Source: Bacteroidia bacterium (GTDB lineage: Bacteria > Bacteroidota > Bacteroidia > J057). From it: a DNA stretch of 64,000 nt. The DNA is taken from positions 3,968,001 through 4,032,000 of the forward strand of contig JAWPMV010000001.1 in the NCBI GenBank assembly GCA_033391075.1, written 5' to 3'. A model generated the notes under the pieces. That model worked only from the letters and a program-made list of their open reading frames with translations. It was not told the DNA's origin and made no database searches. This document shows positions 5,097 through 10,634 of the stretch, piece after piece (the first letter of the stretch is position 1; every line of letters starts with the position of its first letter). Position numbers and translations under genes: made by a program.

Positions 5097-5285
5097 CATG
5101 GGTATATGGCAAAGAAAAGCTTATTCCTTTATTTGATTTCCCCCAAGAGACAAATTTTTCTCTCAAATAGGAGCTCCTCACTATCCGTCTGATTATCAAA
5201 GCACTACTATTCAGAAAATTCTTTAGCTCTTATACATCACCCCTACACATTCATAATTCCGGATATGACTTCCGAATTACTTTCC

Positions 5286-5293
5286 TATCTTTA
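5286..5293 (+). promoter_or_regulatory. Candidate -7 element before the B12 riboswitch
   Basis: TATCTTTA matches seven of eight positions of the Bacteroidota -7 consensus TAnnTTTG. It would start transcription near 5298-5300, exactly where the cobalamin riboswitch begins. No clear TTTG -33 element is visible. Confidence 0.4.
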
Positions 5294-5298
5294 CCTCA

Positions 5299-5462
5299 CT
5301 TTGGTGCTTTAATCACAAAGCTGAAAAGGGAATCCGGTGTAAATCCGGAACAGTCCCCGCTGCTGTGAGTTCCAATAGCACTTTTGGCCTTATGCCACTG
5401 TCTGACAAACGGATGGGAAGGCGCCAAAAGCGGAACAAGTCAGAAGACCTGCCAGGGTATTT
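5299..5462 (+). promoter_or_regulatory. Cobalamin (vitamin B12) riboswitch
   Basis: Leader RNA that binds adenosylcobalamin-type ligands and normally represses downstream expression when B12 is plentiful. Conserved cobalamin-riboswitch blocks are visible in order: GGTGC near 5303, AAAAGGGAATCCGGTG (5344 region), CCGGAACAGTCCCCGCTGC (5345-5363), the B12-box region GCCACTG (5394-5400), GGGAAGGCG (5415-5423) and GTCAGAAGACCTGCC (5439-5453). It lies about 140 bases upstream of a BtuB-like receptor gene, the expected target. A small hairpin (CAACTTT/AAAGTTG, about 5475-5495) in the spacer could be part of the expression platform. The exact ends are estimated. Confidence 0.95.
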
Positions 5463-5598
5463 TTCGCAATCACAACTTTCGGAGGAAAAGTTGGCGATAG
5501 ATACGCATAGATGTACCCTGAGCTTTTGGTCCATTCATCTATACCTGCCTTCTATCTCCACCCAAATTTTTCTTCCTGAGTTGTAGAGAATTTGGCTT

Positions 5599-7500
5599 AT
5601 GAGATACATCTCTACGAAACTCATAACATGTTTATTTTTTTCTGTGCTGCCCTGGCTTTTGCCTGCACAAACAGATACCCTGCAACTAAAAGTCGTAGAG
5701 ATAGAAGCTATCAATATCCGAACAGATACGGAGGCAAGAAATCAAAAAGTCTGGAATCATCAGGCTCTCAAAGAGCTAGGCTATACTAATCTCGCTGAAT
5801 TACTCTCTGCTGAAACAGGCAGTTTTATCAAAAGCTATGGACAAGGCAGTTTGGCTACCTCTTCTATCCGTGGGGGAAGCGCCGGACAAAGCCTGATCTT
5901 ATGGAATGGCCTGCCTATAAGCAGTCCTATGTTGGGGCAATTGGACCTTTCTCTTCTCCCCCTCAACAACAGTGAATCTATCCAATTCCAAAAAGGAGGG
6001 AACTCGGCTCTTTGGGGAAGTGGTGCAATTGGAGGCCTGGTTTCTCTTCAAAATCAAGCTGAATTCGAGAACAAATTGCTCATCGATGCATTCTCCAAAA
6101 TTGGAAGCTTTGGACGCTTTGAGCAGAACCTCCAATTGGGACTAGGCAACAGGCAATTTCAAAGCCGGAGCAAAGTCAGCTATCTGGAAGCGAAAAATGA
6201 CTTTTCGTATTTCCTTGCGGATGGTTTACCTGAGCGTGTTCAGACCAATGCCAGCATTCAGGTCCGAAGTTTACAACAGGATTTGTACTGGAAACCCTCT
6301 CCCAAGCATCAACTCAGCCTGAATTTCTGGACACAGGATGCTCATCGGGAGATTCCTCCAACCAACGTACAAAACCGAAGTGAGGCACATCAGGAAGACA
6401 ACTTCATACGTAGTCATTTGTCCTGGAAGTATGTAGGCAAAAAAAGCCTTTATGAAGCAAAAGCTGCCTATTTCGATGAAGAGCTCAATTACTTTAATGA
6501 CTTAATAGGGCTTGAATCCAGAAGTCATTTCAAGACCCTGAGCGGTGAGATAAGTGGCCAATGGAGCCTTAGTCCGACACATCGATTGCATGCAGGAAGC
6601 ACCCTTCGCCATACACGGGCCTGGTCCGGCGGTTACCAATTCATTCCTGACGAATTGAGAAATGCGGCTTTTGTATCCTGGTTGTGGCAAGTCAAGCGTT
6701 TGCGGATTCAAAGTAGCTTAAGGCAGGAAATCGTAGATGGCAAAGCAGTTCCCTTACTTCCGATCCTGGATCTCAGCTACCAGTTGTTGCCAGCCTGGTC
6801 CATTCGCGGAAAAGTAAGTAAGAATTATCGTCTACCAACCTTCAATGATCGCTATTGGGCGCCGGGAGGCAATCCTGATCTATTGCCAGAATCCGGATGG
6901 AGTGGAGAATTGGGAATCGGGACGGAAAAGAAAAATGCTTTTTGGCAACTGACTGTGGACCTGACGGCATTTAACAGAAGGATAGATAATTGGATCATGT
7001 GGGGAATTGCTGAAGGTCAAAGTTTTTGGTCGGCCAATAACATCACCCGGGTATGGAGCCGGGGATTGGAACCCAGGATAGGGATCAGTCATCAGAGAAA
7101 GGAAATCAGTATAAGTGCTCACTTGGCATATGATTATATCCTATCAACCAGCCAGGCAGCGATTGAGGCTCCAAGAATCCCTCTGGGATCTCAGCTGTTT
7201 TATACTCCGGTTCACCAGGCTCAGGCAAGAGTCAGTTTTGCCTGGAAAAGTTTCAGCTTACGATATACACATTTATACACAGGAAAAACTACGGGAATCA
7301 ATGAGAACCCTCCCTCCTTTCAATTGGGGAATGTACACCTCCAGTTTTTAAGAAAAAGGAAGTCGGGGAATTATCTCATTTTTTTCCAGATCAATAATAT
7401 CTGGGACCTGGATTATCAGGTAATAGAAAGGCGCCCTATGCCGGGTATCCATTACCAGATGGGAATCAATTTCACACTCAATAAGAATCAATCGAAATGA
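5599..7500 (+). CDS. btuB: BtuB-like TonB-dependent vitamin B12 receptor
   Basis: Outer-membrane importer, probably for cobalamin or cobinamide. 633 residues: signal peptide about 1-23 (ending LPWLLPAQ), a plug domain with the typical IRGGSAGQSLILWNGLPI segment and ALWGSGAIGGLVSLQ (about 60-155), then a beta-barrel. There is no N-terminal carboxypeptidase-like domain, which fits BtuB rather than SusC-type receptors. Control by the upstream cobalamin riboswitch is the main argument for the substrate. Its stop overlaps the start of the DUF4465 gene (ATGA), showing translational coupling. The ATG at 5599 is chosen because it gives a clean signal peptide. Confidence 0.92.
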   Translation: MRYISTKLITCLFFSVLPWLLPAQTDTLQLKVVEIEAINIRTDTEARNQKVWNHQALKELGYTNLAELLSAETGSFIKSYGQGSLATSSIRGGSAGQSLILWNGLPISSPMLGQLDLSLLPLNNSESIQFQKGGNSALWGSGAIGGLVSLQNQAEFENKLLIDAFSKIGSFGRFEQNLQLGLGNRQFQSRSKVSYLEAKNDFSYFLADGLPERVQTNASIQVRSLQQDLYWKPSPKHQLSLNFWTQDAHREIPPTNVQNRSEAHQEDNFIRSHLSWKYVGKKSLYEAKAAYFDEELNYFNDLIGLESRSHFKTLSGEISGQWSLSPTHRLHAGSTLRHTRAWSGGYQFIPDELRNAAFVSWLWQVKRLRIQSSLRQEIVDGKAVPLLPILDLSYQLLPAWSIRGKVSKNYRLPTFNDRYWAPGGNPDLLPESGWSGELGIGTEKKNAFWQLTVDLTAFNRRIDNWIMWGIAEGQSFWSANNITRVWSRGLEPRIGISHQRKEISISAHLAYDYILSTSQAAIEAPRIPLGSQLFYTPVHQAQARVSFAWKSFSLRYTHLYTGKTTGINENPPSFQLGNVHLQFLRKRKSGNYLIFFQINNIWDLDYQVIERRPMPGIHYQMGINFTLNKNQSK

Positions 7501-8468
7501 AACAGATTTTTACCATTTCTTTACTCCTAATTTCTAGTTTATTAGGAGCCCAAAACACTTCAGATTTTGAGAATTTCACGGTGGCAGCGGATTCCTTCCT
7601 TAATGGAAGTGATGGGATCACTACTTTTAGCGATGGCTTTATTTCTATGTCGGTAGACTATAATGAAGCCTGGATGTCCTGGGAAGGTTGGTCTATTTCC
7701 AATAGCACCGATACCTCGACTATGGGATTTATGAATCAGTATAGTGCTATTCCTGGAATGGGAGCTGATTCTTCCAGCAATTATGCCGTTTCATTCAGGT
7801 TCGGGCAAGCCAATATACTGAGACTAGAAAATGATGCAGCGGGAAAAGAAGTTGCAGGACTGATGGTTACCAATGGAACTTATCCTTATTTGAGTATGCT
7901 CAATGGAGATAGTTTCGCCAAAAAATTTGGCGGGGTAACTGGAGATGATCCGGATTTTTTCCTCCTCACCATCAAAGCTTATAAAGACGGAGTCCTGAGT
8001 ACAGATAGTGTAGATTTCTATTTGGCGGACTATAGATTTTCTGATAATAGCCAGGATTATATAGTTGATGAATGGACCTTTGTTGATTTGAGTTCATTAG
8101 GGCAAGTGGATAGCCTGTCCTTTGGCCTAAGCTCTAGTGATACAGGAGCAGCTGGAATGAATACTCCAGGATATTTCTGTATTGATAATGTACAGACGGA
8201 AGATGCCGCCACGGGAATTTTTGGAAATCGTGAAGAATTGGCTTTTAGTTTCTACCCTAACCCGAGTTCAGAACTCATCAAAATTCAGGGCATGGAAGGA
8301 AAAAGCGCTCATTATTCAATTTATGATCTGAGTGGCAGGGAAATAGTTTCAGAGGAAAGCTTGGCCTTTGACCAGCAATTCTCGGTAAATAATCTGCAGC
8401 CCGGATATTACCTCTTGAAAATGAGAGCAGGTAATAAACTTGGAACAGAAGTATTTATCAAAAAATAA
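7497..8468 (+). CDS. DUF4465 protein with T9SS sorting domain, B12 locus
   Basis: Secreted 323-residue protein: signal peptide about 1-18 (ending SSLLGAQ), a DUF4465 domain (about 20-235, with SDGFISMSVDYNEAWMSW, WSISNSTD and PGYFCIDNV) and a C-terminal T9SS sorting domain (FYPNPSSELIKIQG to the end). It overlaps btuB by four bases, so it belongs to the riboswitch-controlled operon. DUF4465 proteins recur in B12-uptake loci of Bacteroidota; surface B12-binding accessory proteins (the BtuG and BtuH types) are known from gut species. I infer a surface cobalamin-capture role, here exported by T9SS rather than as a lipoprotein, but no binding residues can be named. Confidence 0.85.
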   Translation: MKQIFTISLLLISSLLGAQNTSDFENFTVAADSFLNGSDGITTFSDGFISMSVDYNEAWMSWEGWSISNSTDTSTMGFMNQYSAIPGMGADSSSNYAVSFRFGQANILRLENDAAGKEVAGLMVTNGTYPYLSMLNGDSFAKKFGGVTGDDPDFFLLTIKAYKDGVLSTDSVDFYLADYRFSDNSQDYIVDEWTFVDLSSLGQVDSLSFGLSSSDTGAAGMNTPGYFCIDNVQTEDAATGIFGNREELAFSFYPNPSSELIKIQGMEGKSAHYSIYDLSGREIVSEESLAFDQQFSVNNLQPGYYLLKMRAGNKLGTEVFIKK

Positions 8469-8476
8469 ATCTTTAG

Positions 8477-8510
8477 GACTTCGGGTTGGAAAATATGCTA
8501 GCCCGAAGTC
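8477..8510. terminator. Bidirectional intrinsic terminator
   Basis: GACTTCGGG (8477-8485) pairs perfectly with CCCGAAGTC (8502-8510), followed by AATTTTC on the + strand. It lies between the convergent DUF4465 and copper ATPase genes and can serve both. Confidence 0.7.
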
Positions 8511-8516
8511 AATTTT

Positions 8517-10634
8517 CTATGTCAGAGATTTTATCCTTAGCCGGAGAGAGTTTCCAATTACGATTACATCAGAGAAAGCCATAGCTGCTGCTGCTATGAT
8601 TGGTTTCAGCATGCCGATTGCTGCTAAAGGAATTGCCAGCACATTGTAAAAGAATGCCCAGAAAAGATTCTGATGAATCGTTTTTACAGTATGCTTACTG
8701 ATTTTATGCAAATCGATCAAACTATCAATTTTATCGCTGGATAGAATGACATCAGACGCATGCATGGCTACTTCGGTAGCTTTCGCCAGAGAAATGCCTA
8801 CATGAGCTCTGGACAAAGCCGGCGCATCATTTACTCCATCCCCGACCATAGCTGTTGAAACTTCATCCGAGAATCCTTTGATCATTTCCAATTTCTGATC
8901 GGGTAGCTGTTCGTAATAAATACGGTCTATGCCCAGTTCTTTGCCAACTTCTATACACTTCTCTTCTTTATCTCCGCTCAACAGGATTGTTTCAACTCCC
9001 AGTTTCTGAAAATAGGCGACCATATCTTTTGCACCGGTTCTTAACTCATCTTTTAAGTCTATACCTGCCCAAAACTCTCCATTCCGAAGGAGATACAGGC
9101 TATGATCTTTGATACCTGTTTTATTTCCAAGGATACGAGCTGATCCCAAATGATACAGATTCCCTTCTTTGTCTTCAGCTTTCATTCCTATCCCTTTCTC
9201 TTCTTCTACTTGTTTTAGCATTTTCAAACCTGCATGTGCCAACTCCCTTTGAATAGACTTTGCGATTGGATGAGAGGAATATAGTTCGATACTTCTCAAT
9301 ACTTTTTCAACCTCTATCCTATCAGATTCAGCCGTTTCTATGGCTGCAATCTTAAACTCACCACTGCTTAGCGTACCGGTTTTATCAAAAACTATCCGTT
9401 TAATCTTAGAGAATTTTTCCAGGGTACTTCCTCCCCGGATCAAAACGCCCTTTTTACTCGCCCTTCCAATCCCCACAATCACTGCTGTAGGAGTAGCCAA
9501 TCCCATTGCACAGGGACAGGAAATCACCAGAACAGCTATACTGTGAATGATAGATGCCTGTATACTTATTTCAAATACGAAGTAGGAAAGCAGAAATGTC
9601 AGTGCAGAAATCCCCAAGACTATGGGCACAAATACAGCACTGATGCGGTCAGCCAACTTCTGAATTTCCGGTTTATCTTTTTGGGCTGACTTAACCAGCT
9701 TAATGATCTGGGAAAGGATTCCTTCCTGAGCTGTTTTATTTACTCTAAACTGTAAATTTCCCTGAATGAGTAAAGTTCCACCTATCAGTTCCTGTCCCTT
9801 TTCTTTGGCCAGGGGCAAACTTTCCCCACTGATCATAGACTCATCCACTTCTCCCTGTCCTGCCAATACCAATCCATCAGTAGGAATTCGATCTCCTGTA
9901 TTCACCTGGAGAATATCCCCGATCTGCAAAGCTTTAATTTCTACTTCCTCCAGAACTTCCTGCCCATCTATCAATTTCAATCTTCGGGCTTTCTGGGGTT
10001 GAAGTCTCGCCAACTCGCGAATAGAAGAAGTAGTCTTTTTTACAGACCTTTCTTCCATCAAATTTCCCAATAAAACCAGGGTAATGATACTGGCAGCCGT
10101 TTCATAAAAGAGGAAATCAGGCCCTAATTGCAGCAAAGTCCCATATAAACTATAGCCAAAAGCTGCAATGGCTCCCATCGCTATCAATACATCCATATTG
10201 GGAACGCCCGTTTTCAGGGATTTCCATCCAGAAACTCCAAAATGAATCATTCCGATAATAAATACCGGACTGGCTAATACTAATTGAACCCAGGTATTGT
10301 GAAGCCAATGCCATGAGACAAACATATGCAGGATAAGGGGCAAAGTAAAAATAGCAGAAAGGTAAAAACGCCTTTCCAGCTTTGATAAGCCTTTCGTTTC
10401 ATCTTCTCCTTCTTCCTCCGTACTTACCTCATAACCAAGGCTTTCTATTCCTTCTATGATCCGGGGAATCTCTCTTTCGTTTAGCAACTCAAATTCCACC
10501 TCTCCATTGGCAAAATCAACAGAGACCCCTTCCATTCCCTCTTTTTTCAGGTATTTTTCCACTCCGAGGGCACAATTGTTACAGGTCATGCCATTGACCT
10601 GGAGGGATATATGTGTAAGTTCTTTTACAGACAT
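8517..10634 (-). CDS. copA: Copper-translocating P-type (P1B) ATPase
   Basis: Inner-membrane ATP-driven exporter, probably of Cu(I). 705 residues: one N-terminal heavy-metal-associated domain with GMTCNNC (15-21), about eight membrane helices, the actuator motif SGES (269-272), the CPC metal-site motif (373-375), the phosphorylation site DKTGT (417-421), the SSHPIAKS histidine-proline motif (about 453-460) and GDGVNDAP in the ATP-binding region. The CPC motif and CxxC domain fit Cu(I) or Ag(I) specificity. The gene is single with its own candidate promoter (10686-10693). No copper regulator gene is adjacent. Confidence 0.95.
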   Translation of the reverse strand: MSVKELTHISLQVNGMTCNNCALGVEKYLKKEGMEGVSVDFANGEVEFELLNEREIPRIIEGIESLGYEVSTEEEGEDETKGLSKLERRFYLSAIFTLPLILHMFVSWHWLHNTWVQLVLASPVFIIGMIHFGVSGWKSLKTGVPNMDVLIAMGAIAAFGYSLYGTLLQLGPDFLFYETAASIITLVLLGNLMEERSVKKTTSSIRELARLQPQKARRLKLIDGQEVLEEVEIKALQIGDILQVNTGDRIPTDGLVLAGQGEVDESMISGESLPLAKEKGQELIGGTLLIQGNLQFRVNKTAQEGILSQIIKLVKSAQKDKPEIQKLADRISAVFVPIVLGISALTFLLSYFVFEISIQASIIHSIAVLVISCPCAMGLATPTAVIVGIGRASKKGVLIRGGSTLEKFSKIKRIVFDKTGTLSSGEFKIAAIETAESDRIEVEKVLRSIELYSSHPIAKSIQRELAHAGLKMLKQVEEEKGIGMKAEDKEGNLYHLGSARILGNKTGIKDHSLYLLRNGEFWAGIDLKDELRTGAKDMVAYFQKLGVETILLSGDKEEKCIEVGKELGIDRIYYEQLPDQKLEMIKGFSDEVSTAMVGDGVNDAPALSRAHVGISLAKATEVAMHASDVILSSDKIDSLIDLHKISKHTVKTIHQNLFWAFFYNVLAIPLAAIGMLKPIIAAAAMAFSDVIVIGNSLRLRIKSLT

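Follow-up and report, generated by a model that had tools for sequence, protein, structure and literature searches.

We describe a locus in which a cobalamin riboswitch heads a gene for a Bacteroidota-type BtuB-like receptor and, overlapping it, a gene for a DUF4465 protein that ends in a T9SS sorting domain. This arrangement is quite probably a B12-repressed two-gene uptake operon, whose second product is a BtuJ-type capture protein delivered by the T9SS and perhaps standing in for BtuG. Two observations are new here: the T9SS form of DUF4465 is the usual form among Saprospirales-type relatives, and a BtuG orthologue was not found in 48 of the 58 genomes with btuB directly upstream of DUF4465 (the direct pair), that of the window included, when at most 31 candidates per genome were scored.

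Operon layout and riboswitch

The window is the whole 64 kb stretch of DNA that was analysed. The following features, all on the + strand, are used below:

5285-5470, +, cobalamin riboswitch aptamer (RF00174; Rfam match), with the B12 box close to its 3' end
5471-5598, +, leader between the aptamer and the btuB start codon, probable expression platform
5599-7500, +, btuB-like TonB-dependent outer-membrane receptor, 633 aa (Pfam domains, phmmer)
7497-8468, +, T9SS-tailed DUF4465 protein of the BtuJ type, 323 aa (ORF, Pfam, TIGR04183, AlphaFold model)
7497-7550, +, putative Sec-type signal peptide at the N-terminus (residues 1-18), lacking a lipobox cysteine, recognised by eye in the translated sequence
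7554-8201, +, DUF4465 jellyroll spanning model residues 20-235, predicted cobalamin-binding domain (fold match, Pfam)
7881-7883, +, codon of Tyr129, equivalent to BtuJ1 Tyr146 in the DE loop (alignment, numbering counted by hand)
8160-8174, +, codons of Asn222-Tyr226, HI-loop motif MNTPGYF (sequence alignment)
8253-8465, +, C-terminal T9SS sorting domain of type A, covering residues 253-323 (TIGR04183, fold match)
8477-8510, +, terminator-like hairpin ending the operon, 13 pairs followed by AATTTTCTAT

A well-formed cobalamin riboswitch had been proposed in a sequence-only reading of the window, and the Rfam search bears this out. RF00174 matches 5285-5470 on the + strand with 120.5 bits (gathering score 31.5, E 1.1e-29) and covers the full aptamer, positions 1-189 of the 189 in the model. 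No second Rfam match in the 64 kb exceeds its gathering score, and the aptamer is one of two RF00174 matches found in the 9.49 Mb genome, where 150 of 349 candidates were scored. The window aptamer was aligned with 14 relatives. The region 5285-5640 gave a folding z of -2.1; a single fold of the leader region did not make an on/off pairing clear, and the scan placed no terminator-like site on the + strand within the leader (5471-5598). Altogether nine terminator-like sites were found in the scan, compared to 4.0 +/- 2.2 in shuffles, and the hairpin at 8477-8510 is by far the longest. Since it follows the DUF4465 gene, btuB and DUF4465 look like a two-gene operon. The two reading frames overlap by the four bases ATGA (7497-7500), as the sequence-only reading had stated.

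The receptor behind the riboswitch, likewise called BtuB-like in that reading, carries the Pfam domains Plug (61.3 bits) and TonB_dep_Rec barrel (85.7 bits), both exceeding the cut-off. Its closest solved relatives in phmmer are of the BtuB kind, namely 8p97 (named TonB-dependent receptor, 1.2e-51) and 8p98 (Vitamin B12 transporter BtuB, 1.4e-51), followed by 8bmx (putative TonB-linked receptor, 8.2e-50) and 8blw (BtuB1, 8.2e-21). The receptor stays below both NCBI equivalog cut-offs for BtuB (TIGR01779, 79.1 vs 599.7 bits; NF007926, 46.1 vs 836 bits); hence, we name it a Bacteroidota-type BtuB-like receptor. It is a putative cobalamin transporter.

The DUF4465 domain and its predicted binding site

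The DUF4465 domain (PF14717) spans residues 58-232 of the window protein with 193.8 bits against a cut-off of 25. The AlphaFold model has a pLDDT of 93.1, and its jellyroll superimposes on 9hmu, a DUF4465 structure with B12, with Z 27.8 and rmsd 1.8 over 202 residues. Six DUF4465 entries match at Z 22.6-27.8, among them the B12 complexes 9hmu, 9qpm, 9fct (Z 26.5) and 9i2l (Z 22.6), and the augmented jellyroll of these complexes recurs in the model. The nearest fold is also the nearest solved sequence, D5EK51 (9HMU, 3.1e-33). BtuG and BtuH had been suggested earlier as comparators, but the structure comparison favours the DUF4465 entries and the proper relative is BtuJ. Kinship of the window protein with BtuG or BtuH was rejected, because PF16819 gives no match and the best whole-domain structures are the six DUF4465 entries.

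All four conserved hydrogen-bonding residues of BtuJ1 and BtuJ2 are kept in the window protein: besides Tyr129, these are Asn222, Thr223 and Tyr226, corresponding to Asn241, Thr242 and Tyr245 of BtuJ1. The position of Tyr129 is occupied by Tyr in 73 of the 81 T9SS-type rows of the alignment; all four residues are identical in 62 rows and at least one differs in the other 19. Cobalamin binding by DUF4465, originally proposed from the letters of the window, is established for the family, since eight divergent DUF4465 proteins have been shown to bind B12 and a structure with B12 has been solved (PMC13398666, partial text; see also 9hmu, 9fct, 9qpm and 9i2l). D5EK51 from Coraliomargarita akajimensis (9HMU) and Fluta from Fluviicola taffensis bind B12 (PMC13398666, partial text) and, like the window protein, come from bacteria outside gut Bacteroides. 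For the window protein itself, the retained contact residues and the modelled fold suggest that it would bind cobalamin as well.

Export signals and the T9SS of the host

By eye, the putative signal peptide reads MKQIFTISLLLISSLLGA-QN, and the model places a helix at residues 2-13. The first cysteine is residue 228, so that no lipobox is present. At the very C-terminus, TIGR04183 matches residues 253-323 of 323 with 46.8 bits (cut-off 23) and Por_Secre_tail (PF18962) residues 253-314 with 44.3 bits (cut-off 27). The modelled tail resembles T9SS C-terminal domains at Z 8.9-12.4, the top match (Z 12.4, rmsd 1.5, 74 residues) being 8glk, where the C-terminal domain of NucA sits in the T9SS translocon. 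The T9SS sorting domain of the sequence-only reading is thereby supported by two profiles and by fold, and it is common to the window protein and type A cargo (TIGR04183). Known T9SS type A cargo consists mostly of enzymes and adhesins.

Each of the two tail profiles matches 80 of 86 aligned members, and five of the 86 rows are tail-less lipoproteins. A component of the T9SS is encoded in the window's genome, where SprA_N scores 470.6 bits in a frame of 2471 aa. Of 57 genomes that carry a T9SS-tailed DUF4465 protein and were searched for SprA, 54 have it and three gave no match. Of the four genomes whose DUF4465 protein is a lipoprotein, two have SprA as well; hence, T9SS presence alone does not decide the tag. 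On the tag tree the lipoproteins need one label change, but direction and number of the tag switches are not settled because of weak support (55/22) and very long lipoprotein branches.

Recurrence among relatives

The pair was followed through 76 non-redundant related loci, selected for likeness to the window. A riboswitch is present in 71 of them, always on the DUF4465 strand (weakest at L094, E 0.003), and btuB lies directly upstream of DUF4465 in 61, with a median gap of 7 bases and, in ten of these, the identical 4-base overlap. The DUF4465 protein carries a T9SS tail in 73 of the 76 loci, compared to 27 of 1119 other frames of at least 150 aa there. A sample that was not chosen for likeness gave a riboswitch in 16 and btuB in 13 of 17 stretches examined. 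The sequence-only reading would have been contradicted by a DUF4465 family not enriched beside btuB or cobalamin riboswitches, and the counts point the other way. Chance or misassembly as the origin of the btuB-DUF4465 pair was rejected, given its recurrence in 61 of the 76 loci.

Presence and absence of BtuG

PF16819 alone proved too insensitive as a test for BtuG, as it missed BtuG-like frames that a profile of our own picked up in the genomes of L097 and L126, and therefore a 28-row BtuG profile was built. Its scores separate orthologues, with E 3.2e-66 or better, by a gap from the next at 3.3e-16. In the window's genome this profile gave no BtuG orthologue among the best candidates of a first look (at most 31 scored). 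Given also the result in the other direct-pair genomes, the T9SS-tailed DUF4465 protein perhaps stands in for BtuG in the window's genome. Such a substitution is not strict, as 10 of the 58 direct-pair genomes do have BtuG, and the absences weigh less in many genomes because these are MAGs of unstated completeness with at most 31 candidates scored each. Culturable relatives that have the direct pair and in which this search found no BtuG include Neolewinella antarctica, Flavilitoribacter nigricans, Phaeodactylibacter xiamenensis and Portibacter lacus.

Among the 13 genomes of the window family, DUF4465 occurs in that of the window (G000) and in G001, G004 and G006, and a BtuG orthologue in G002, G003 and G007 to G012 (eight genomes); neither was found in G005, which is 90% complete and split into about 1050 contigs. 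The lack of any co-occurrence would arise by chance with a probability of about 5/715 = 0.007, calculated by hand and with kinship ignored. Only the BtuG loci of G003 and G007 adjoin btuB and a riboswitch in the examined stretches. Those of G008, G010 and G011 showed neither in the examined stretch, the G009 locus lies at the edge of its contig, and the neighbourhoods in G002 and G012 did not enter this comparison. The eight BtuG genes of the family may therefore not all be B12 genes.

A strict exclusion of BtuG and DUF4465 was considered and dropped, as it holds in the 13-genome family but is broken outside of it: of the 54 direct-pair genomes there, 10 contain BtuG alongside DUF4465. BtuG and DUF4465 hence avoid each other as a tendency. 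Within the stretch itself, a BtuG-like frame was seen in one of the 61 direct loci (L126); in L046 and L047, direct loci of another sample, BtuG follows downstream in the same gene run.

Proposed mechanism and alternative explanations

According to our preferred reading, scarce cobalamin would make the riboswitch permit joint expression of btuB and the overlapping DUF4465 gene. The signal peptide would take the DUF4465 protein across the inner membrane, and the T9SS would then carry it through the outer membrane via the C-terminal sorting domain, such that it ends up held at the cell surface or released. Outside, the jellyroll loops with the four retained residues would bind cobalamin and hand it over to BtuB for TonB-driven import. 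As the outer-surface partner, the DUF4465 protein would replace a BtuG that was not found, both here and in the majority of relatives sharing the pair. Against this explanation stands the lack of a lipid anchor that could keep the T9SS form close to BtuB.

Type A sorting domains commonly end up attached to the surface, and the tight coupling to btuB fits a membrane partner equally well. Both facts speak against the alternative of a released 'cobalophore' that the T9SS sortase cleaves and sheds, and which would catch B12 afar and return it to any cell with BtuB rather than work as a partner docked on BtuB. We regard it as rather unlikely; in its favour, the window protein combines a T9SS tail with a missing lipobox, and BtuJ1 and BtuJ2 of B. 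theta work on extracellular vesicles and feed cells (PMC12751083, partial text).

It is also conceivable, but unlikely, that BtuB alone suffices in these lineages, so that BtuG is not replaced at all and DUF4465 serves as an optional concentrator. BtuB of E. coli functions without a surface partner, and G005, incomplete and fragmented as it is, yielded neither protein. Against this, btuB and DUF4465 keep almost the same relative position in 61 loci, and efficient uptake in B. theta needs BtuG (PMC6143338, partial text).

A ligand other than cobalamin, such as incomplete corrinoids or cobamides with different lower ligands, appears improbable. The N-terminal WX and YA loops are the most variable ones and may bear on lower-ligand recognition (PMC13398666, partial text), but the conserved ring-A contacts are kept in the window protein and it is a cobalamin riboswitch that heads the operon. 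That the tail is a plain Ig-like domain on a periplasmic protein, in line with the 'periplasmic targeting signals' that the DUF4465 survey gives to non-lipoproteins (PMC13398666, partial text), is hardly credible in view of two profiles above curated cut-offs, each matching nearly all aligned members, and a best fold match to a domain of T9SS cargo caught inside the translocon.

Relation to known systems and significance

The closest known system is that of BtuJ1 and BtuJ2 (BT_1491 and BT_1957; IPR027828/DUF4465) from Bacteroides thetaiotaomicron, which have the domain, the fold and the four B12-contact residues in common with the window protein and likewise belong to a riboswitch-controlled locus with btuB (PMC12751083, partial text). 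BtuJ proteins, however, are lipoproteins found in vesicles (PMC12751083, partial text), whereas the window protein has a T9SS sorting domain and no lipoprotein signal; hence, we call it BtuJ-type and not BtuJ in the narrow sense. B. theta moreover possesses BtuG, BtuH and BtuK, in contrast to the window's genome with no BtuG orthologue found. The BtuBG lid complex of Bacteroides also places a surface capture partner beside btuB under a cobalamin riboswitch, but BtuG (PF16819) is a beta-propeller lipoprotein, whereas the window operon is without BtuG and its DUF4465 protein without PF16819 or lipobox.

Surface capture of B12 in Bacteroidota is understood mainly from lipoproteins of gut Bacteroides, with BtuG as a lid on BtuB. 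Literature searches, judged largely by titles and abstract openings and with subscription papers and preprints outside their scope, did not turn up a T9SS-exported B12 binder. The DUF4465 survey divides these proteins into lipoproteins and those with 'periplasmic targeting signals'; T9SS, type IX, sorting and PEP-CTERM are absent from its main text, where the tags of D5EK51 and Fluta are not discussed either (PMC13398666, partial text). If our reading is true, the periplasmic assignment of the non-lipoproteins would need correcting, and the lid mechanism of BtuG would not be the only solution. Furthermore, the T9SS would then serve micronutrient uptake in addition to exporting adhesins and enzymes. 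B12-binding proteins may in that case be shed into water or biofilm by free-living Bacteroidota, which would affect who gets B12.

A bolder generalisation can be put forward only tentatively. In Saprospirales-type bacteria, the T9SS-exported BtuJ-type protein might be an obligate partner of BtuB that replaces the BtuG lid in a lipid-free form, surface-held or shed. The domain might swap its tag by lineage, with a lipobox in Bacteroides-type bacteria, a T9SS tail in most environmental Bacteroidota and PEP-CTERM in one Planctomycetota MAG, and a second, undescribed partner protein might add to it.

For the companion protein APG, neither DUF4465 nor another B12-binding protein appeared among the fold matches listed, though it may still be related to such proteins. 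Its model reaches a moderate pLDDT of 73 only. The N-terminal part gave middling fold matches, the highest to PAPP-A (Z 10.3) and another to a pectin-binding module (Z 8.9), and the C-terminus matched a T9SS domain (Z 12.6).

A T9SS-tailed partner in a riboswitch-led operon

The DUF4465 domain and its ligand have been described before, as has the association with B12 loci, and the type IX secretion system (T9SS) is well known. The union of the two was not found in the published work covered by our literature searches, and it is new as far as these show. In the main text of PMC13398666 (FEBS Open Bio 2026), which assigns periplasmic targeting signals to DUF4465 non-lipoproteins, the terms T9SS, type IX, sorting, secretion and PEP-CTERM do not occur.

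The operon in the window looks limited to riboswitch, receptor and partner, because a hairpin stands downstream and the unit is flanked by a SnoaL-like gene upstream and a heavy-metal ATPase gene downstream on the opposite strand (domain scan):

5285-5470, + strand: cobalamin riboswitch (RF00174, 120.5 bits); nothing else in the window exceeds a gathering score
5599-7500, + strand: open reading frame of a TonB-dependent receptor, 633 aa
7497-8468, + strand: DUF4465 protein, 323 aa, whose start codon overlaps the receptor stop by ATGA
8477-8510, + strand: terminator-like hairpin of 13 pairs behind the DUF4465 gene

The receptor has plug and barrel domains (domain scan), and the solved structures closest to it are 8p97 and 8p98 (both with E about 1e-51), the second of which bears the name BtuB, followed by 8bmx and 8blw. 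Since it fell below the cut-offs of the BtuB equivalog models (TIGR01779, 79.1 vs 599.7 bits), we call it a Bacteroidota-type BtuB, i.e. a putative B12 transporter.

Its partner carries the DUF4465 domain at residues 58-232 (193.8 bits) and a T9SS type A sorting domain at residues 253-323 (TIGR04183, 46.8 vs 23 bits; Pfam, 44.3 vs a cut-off of 27). The N-terminus reads by eye as a Sec signal peptide, and the protein has no lipobox, its first cysteine being residue 228. An AlphaFold model built from 86 sequences reached a mean pLDDT of 93.1, and in a second-look comparison with solved structures six DUF4465 entries stood apart (Z 22.6-27.8), led by D5EK51 with bound B12 (Z 27.8, rmsd 1.8 over 202 residues). 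The next matches fall on the C-terminal domain and are cargo domains of T9SS, the best of them that of NucA bound in the translocon (8glk; Z 12.4 and rmsd 1.5 for 74 residues).

According to excerpts of PMC12751083, Tyr146, Asn241, Thr242 and Tyr245 of BtuJ1 are hydrogen-bonders to cobalamin conserved between BtuJ1 and BtuJ2, the DUF4465 lipoproteins of Bacteroides thetaiotaomicron (the pair "Asn291 and Asn241" is printed there in reverse order compared to the other pairs). In a hand-counted alignment the window protein has Tyr129, Asn222, Thr223 and Tyr226 at these positions, with no exchange; the four residues are identical in 62 of 81 T9SS-type rows, window included, and 71 of 81 keep the contacts if Tyr or Phe is allowed at the two Tyr positions. 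Binding of B12 by the window protein, as the sequence-only reading had proposed, is very likely, because these contacts are kept and eight DUF4465 proteins with identities as low as 16% bind B12 (PMC13398666, in part).

Proposed mechanism and export

As the most likely working model, low B12 would release the riboswitch, so that BtuB and the catcher would be made together; the catcher would leave through T9SS, bind B12 outside and hand it over to BtuB. The catcher may be held at the surface or shed, and shedding gains some weight because the lipoprotein BtuJ of B. thetaiotaomicron works on vesicles (PMC12751083, in part). Concerning the export of the catcher in our working model, the channel SprA is encoded in the window genome and in 54/57 searched genomes with T9SS-tailed DUF4465 (11/11 of our numbered genome set, 43/46 reached through loci), compared to 2/4 genomes with lipoprotein DUF4465. 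Hence, the sorting tag follows the T9SS machinery mostly, not wholly. A profile search did not find SprA in a Planctomycetota MAG.

Recurrence of the arrangement

A profile of the window protein and seven relatives was run against the genomes of 84,980 species, one per species, which resulted in 215 encoding stretches; the best 80, chosen by likeness to the window, minus four copies of loci already in hand gave 76 loci. With a model built from 15 Rfam-confirmed members, a riboswitch was detected in 71/76, always on the DUF4465 strand (weakest L094, E 0.003; that of L158 is cut by the contig end), and missed in L090, L098, L133 (contig ends inside btuB), L147 and L157. The btuB gene lies directly upstream of DUF4465 in 61/76 loci (median gap 7 bases; ten with the same 4-base overlap as the window), begins 0.02-2.1 kb behind a leading DUF4465 gene in nine, and is not in the stretch read in six. 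Our own profile found the T9SS tail in 73/76 loci (L083 and L146 weak), compared to a background of 27 among 1119 other frames of at least 150 aa in the loci read; the exceptions are L126 (shortened frame), L150 (contig end) and L153 (PEP-CTERM protein). TIGR04183 and Por_Secre_tail each match 80/86 aligned proteins, and the 86 include five proteins whose sequences mark them as lipoproteins and in which our profile found no tail.

A sample free of likeness selection was obtained with PF14717 from 40 relatives (8 genomes match) and 395 phylum genomes (9 over the cut-off, the window's included), giving 17 distinct proteins: 11 T9SS-tailed, five lipoproteins and an 1866-aa frame of genome G114. 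Within the stretches read, a riboswitch accompanies all except the G114 frame (16/17) and a same-strand btuB is present for 13/17, directly upstream in 10. Three T9SS-tailed chains (L047:7716-9323, L134:5194-6834 and L161:5854-7503) contain two DUF4465 domains and possibly carry two putative B12 sites.

Relation to BtuG

In Bacteroides, the lipoprotein BtuG is the lid of BtuB and essential for efficient uptake (PMC6143338; PMC10404256, both in part). With our 28-row profile, orthologues score at E 3.2e-66 or better, whereas other propellers reach 3.3e-16 at best. DUF4465 directly follows btuB in 58 genomes (G000, i.e. the window's, G001, G004, G006, G101, G195, G019, G031 and 50 reached through loci, mostly MAGs listed without completeness); no orthologue was found in 48 of these, with at most the best 31 candidates scored per genome. 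The 48 include the window genome (99% complete), G006, G101 and G195 (about 100%) and the isolates Flavilitoribacter nigricans, Phaeodactylibacter xiamenensis and Neolewinella antarctica. BtuG occurs in the other ten: G019, G031 and the genomes of L082, L084, L094, L097, L110, L122, L126 (DUF4465 frame shortened, tail missing) and L136. It stands in the same stretch in 9/9 DUF4465-first loci vs 1/61 direct loci, and also in the direct loci L046 and L047 outside the 61. In the 13 genomes of the window's family the two were never found together, with the caveat that several of the BtuG genes there lie away from btuB or outside the stretches read. That genomes with the direct pair tend to do without BtuG appears to be new, as far as our searches show.

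In L064:5307-6566 (G003, window's family), a T9SS-tailed protein weakly like BtuG (6e-06, own profile) stands directly behind a BtuG lipoprotein in a riboswitch-btuB operon and is possibly another B12 partner using T9SS. BtuG-like lipoproteins of L065, L066 and L067 (G010, G011, G008), with neither btuB nor riboswitch in the stretch read, may represent a paralogue with another role; those of L066 and L067 adjoin a gene reading by eye like hslU.

Further proteins of the B12 loci

A second conserved protein, labelled APG from its FAPxxGQxGTTAxxKDSS start, follows DUF4465 in 10/76 loci (L134, L143, L152, L153, L155, L156, L158-L161) and in L046 (11353-12345) and L048 (7472-8470); in L070:2180-3250 it lies between a contig-cut btuB and BtuG, and this stretch contains no DUF4465 gene. 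BtuG is often near, and 10/11 aligned APG proteins have a T9SS tail. A Pfam scan of four found no domain in the N-terminal part; 7/11 weakly match the LIC_13355 lipoprotein family. APG is an undescribed conserved protein and a candidate for further B12 handling.

In a Phycisphaerae MAG (L153:5304-8025), riboswitch, DUF4465 and APG are arranged consecutively, and about 2 kb upstream of them lie an ABC ATPase gene and a BtuF/C-like gene (for a FecCD/BtuC-type permease with a fused periplasmic binding domain). The DUF4465 protein and APG of this locus each terminate in PEP-CTERM, compared to mostly T9SS tails elsewhere, and the module therefore appears to retain its binding parts while its sorting tag is exchanged; a dockerin-like repeat is present in this APG as well.

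Long proteins that combine Ig-like repeats with a T9SS tail are encoded next to btuB (L070:602-2155) and behind btuB-DUF4465 (L044:454-2205). In an operon of the type btuB-DUF4465-APG-BtuG, BtuG is immediately followed by a Diphthami_syn_2 (PF01902) gene (L046:9612-10322).

Other observations on the riboswitches

The Rfam match carries at its 5' edge a TA-n-n-TTTG-like block (window 5286-5293, TATCTTTA) that recurs at the same place in 14 riboswitches aligned with the window's; it resembles the -7 promoter element of Bacteroidota rather than a part of the RNA structure.

The window genome (9.49 Mb, 5 contigs) is called Saprospirales-type, because its kin, judged by the DUF4465 protein, are mostly Saprospiraceae. 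Among 150 of 349 candidates scored, it has one further, weaker cobalamin riboswitch (44.5 bits, L059:5968-6108) ahead of genes for the small and large subunits of ribonucleotide reductase (6228-9256), an arrangement that would make sense if a B12-dependent reductase took over their role in the presence of B12.
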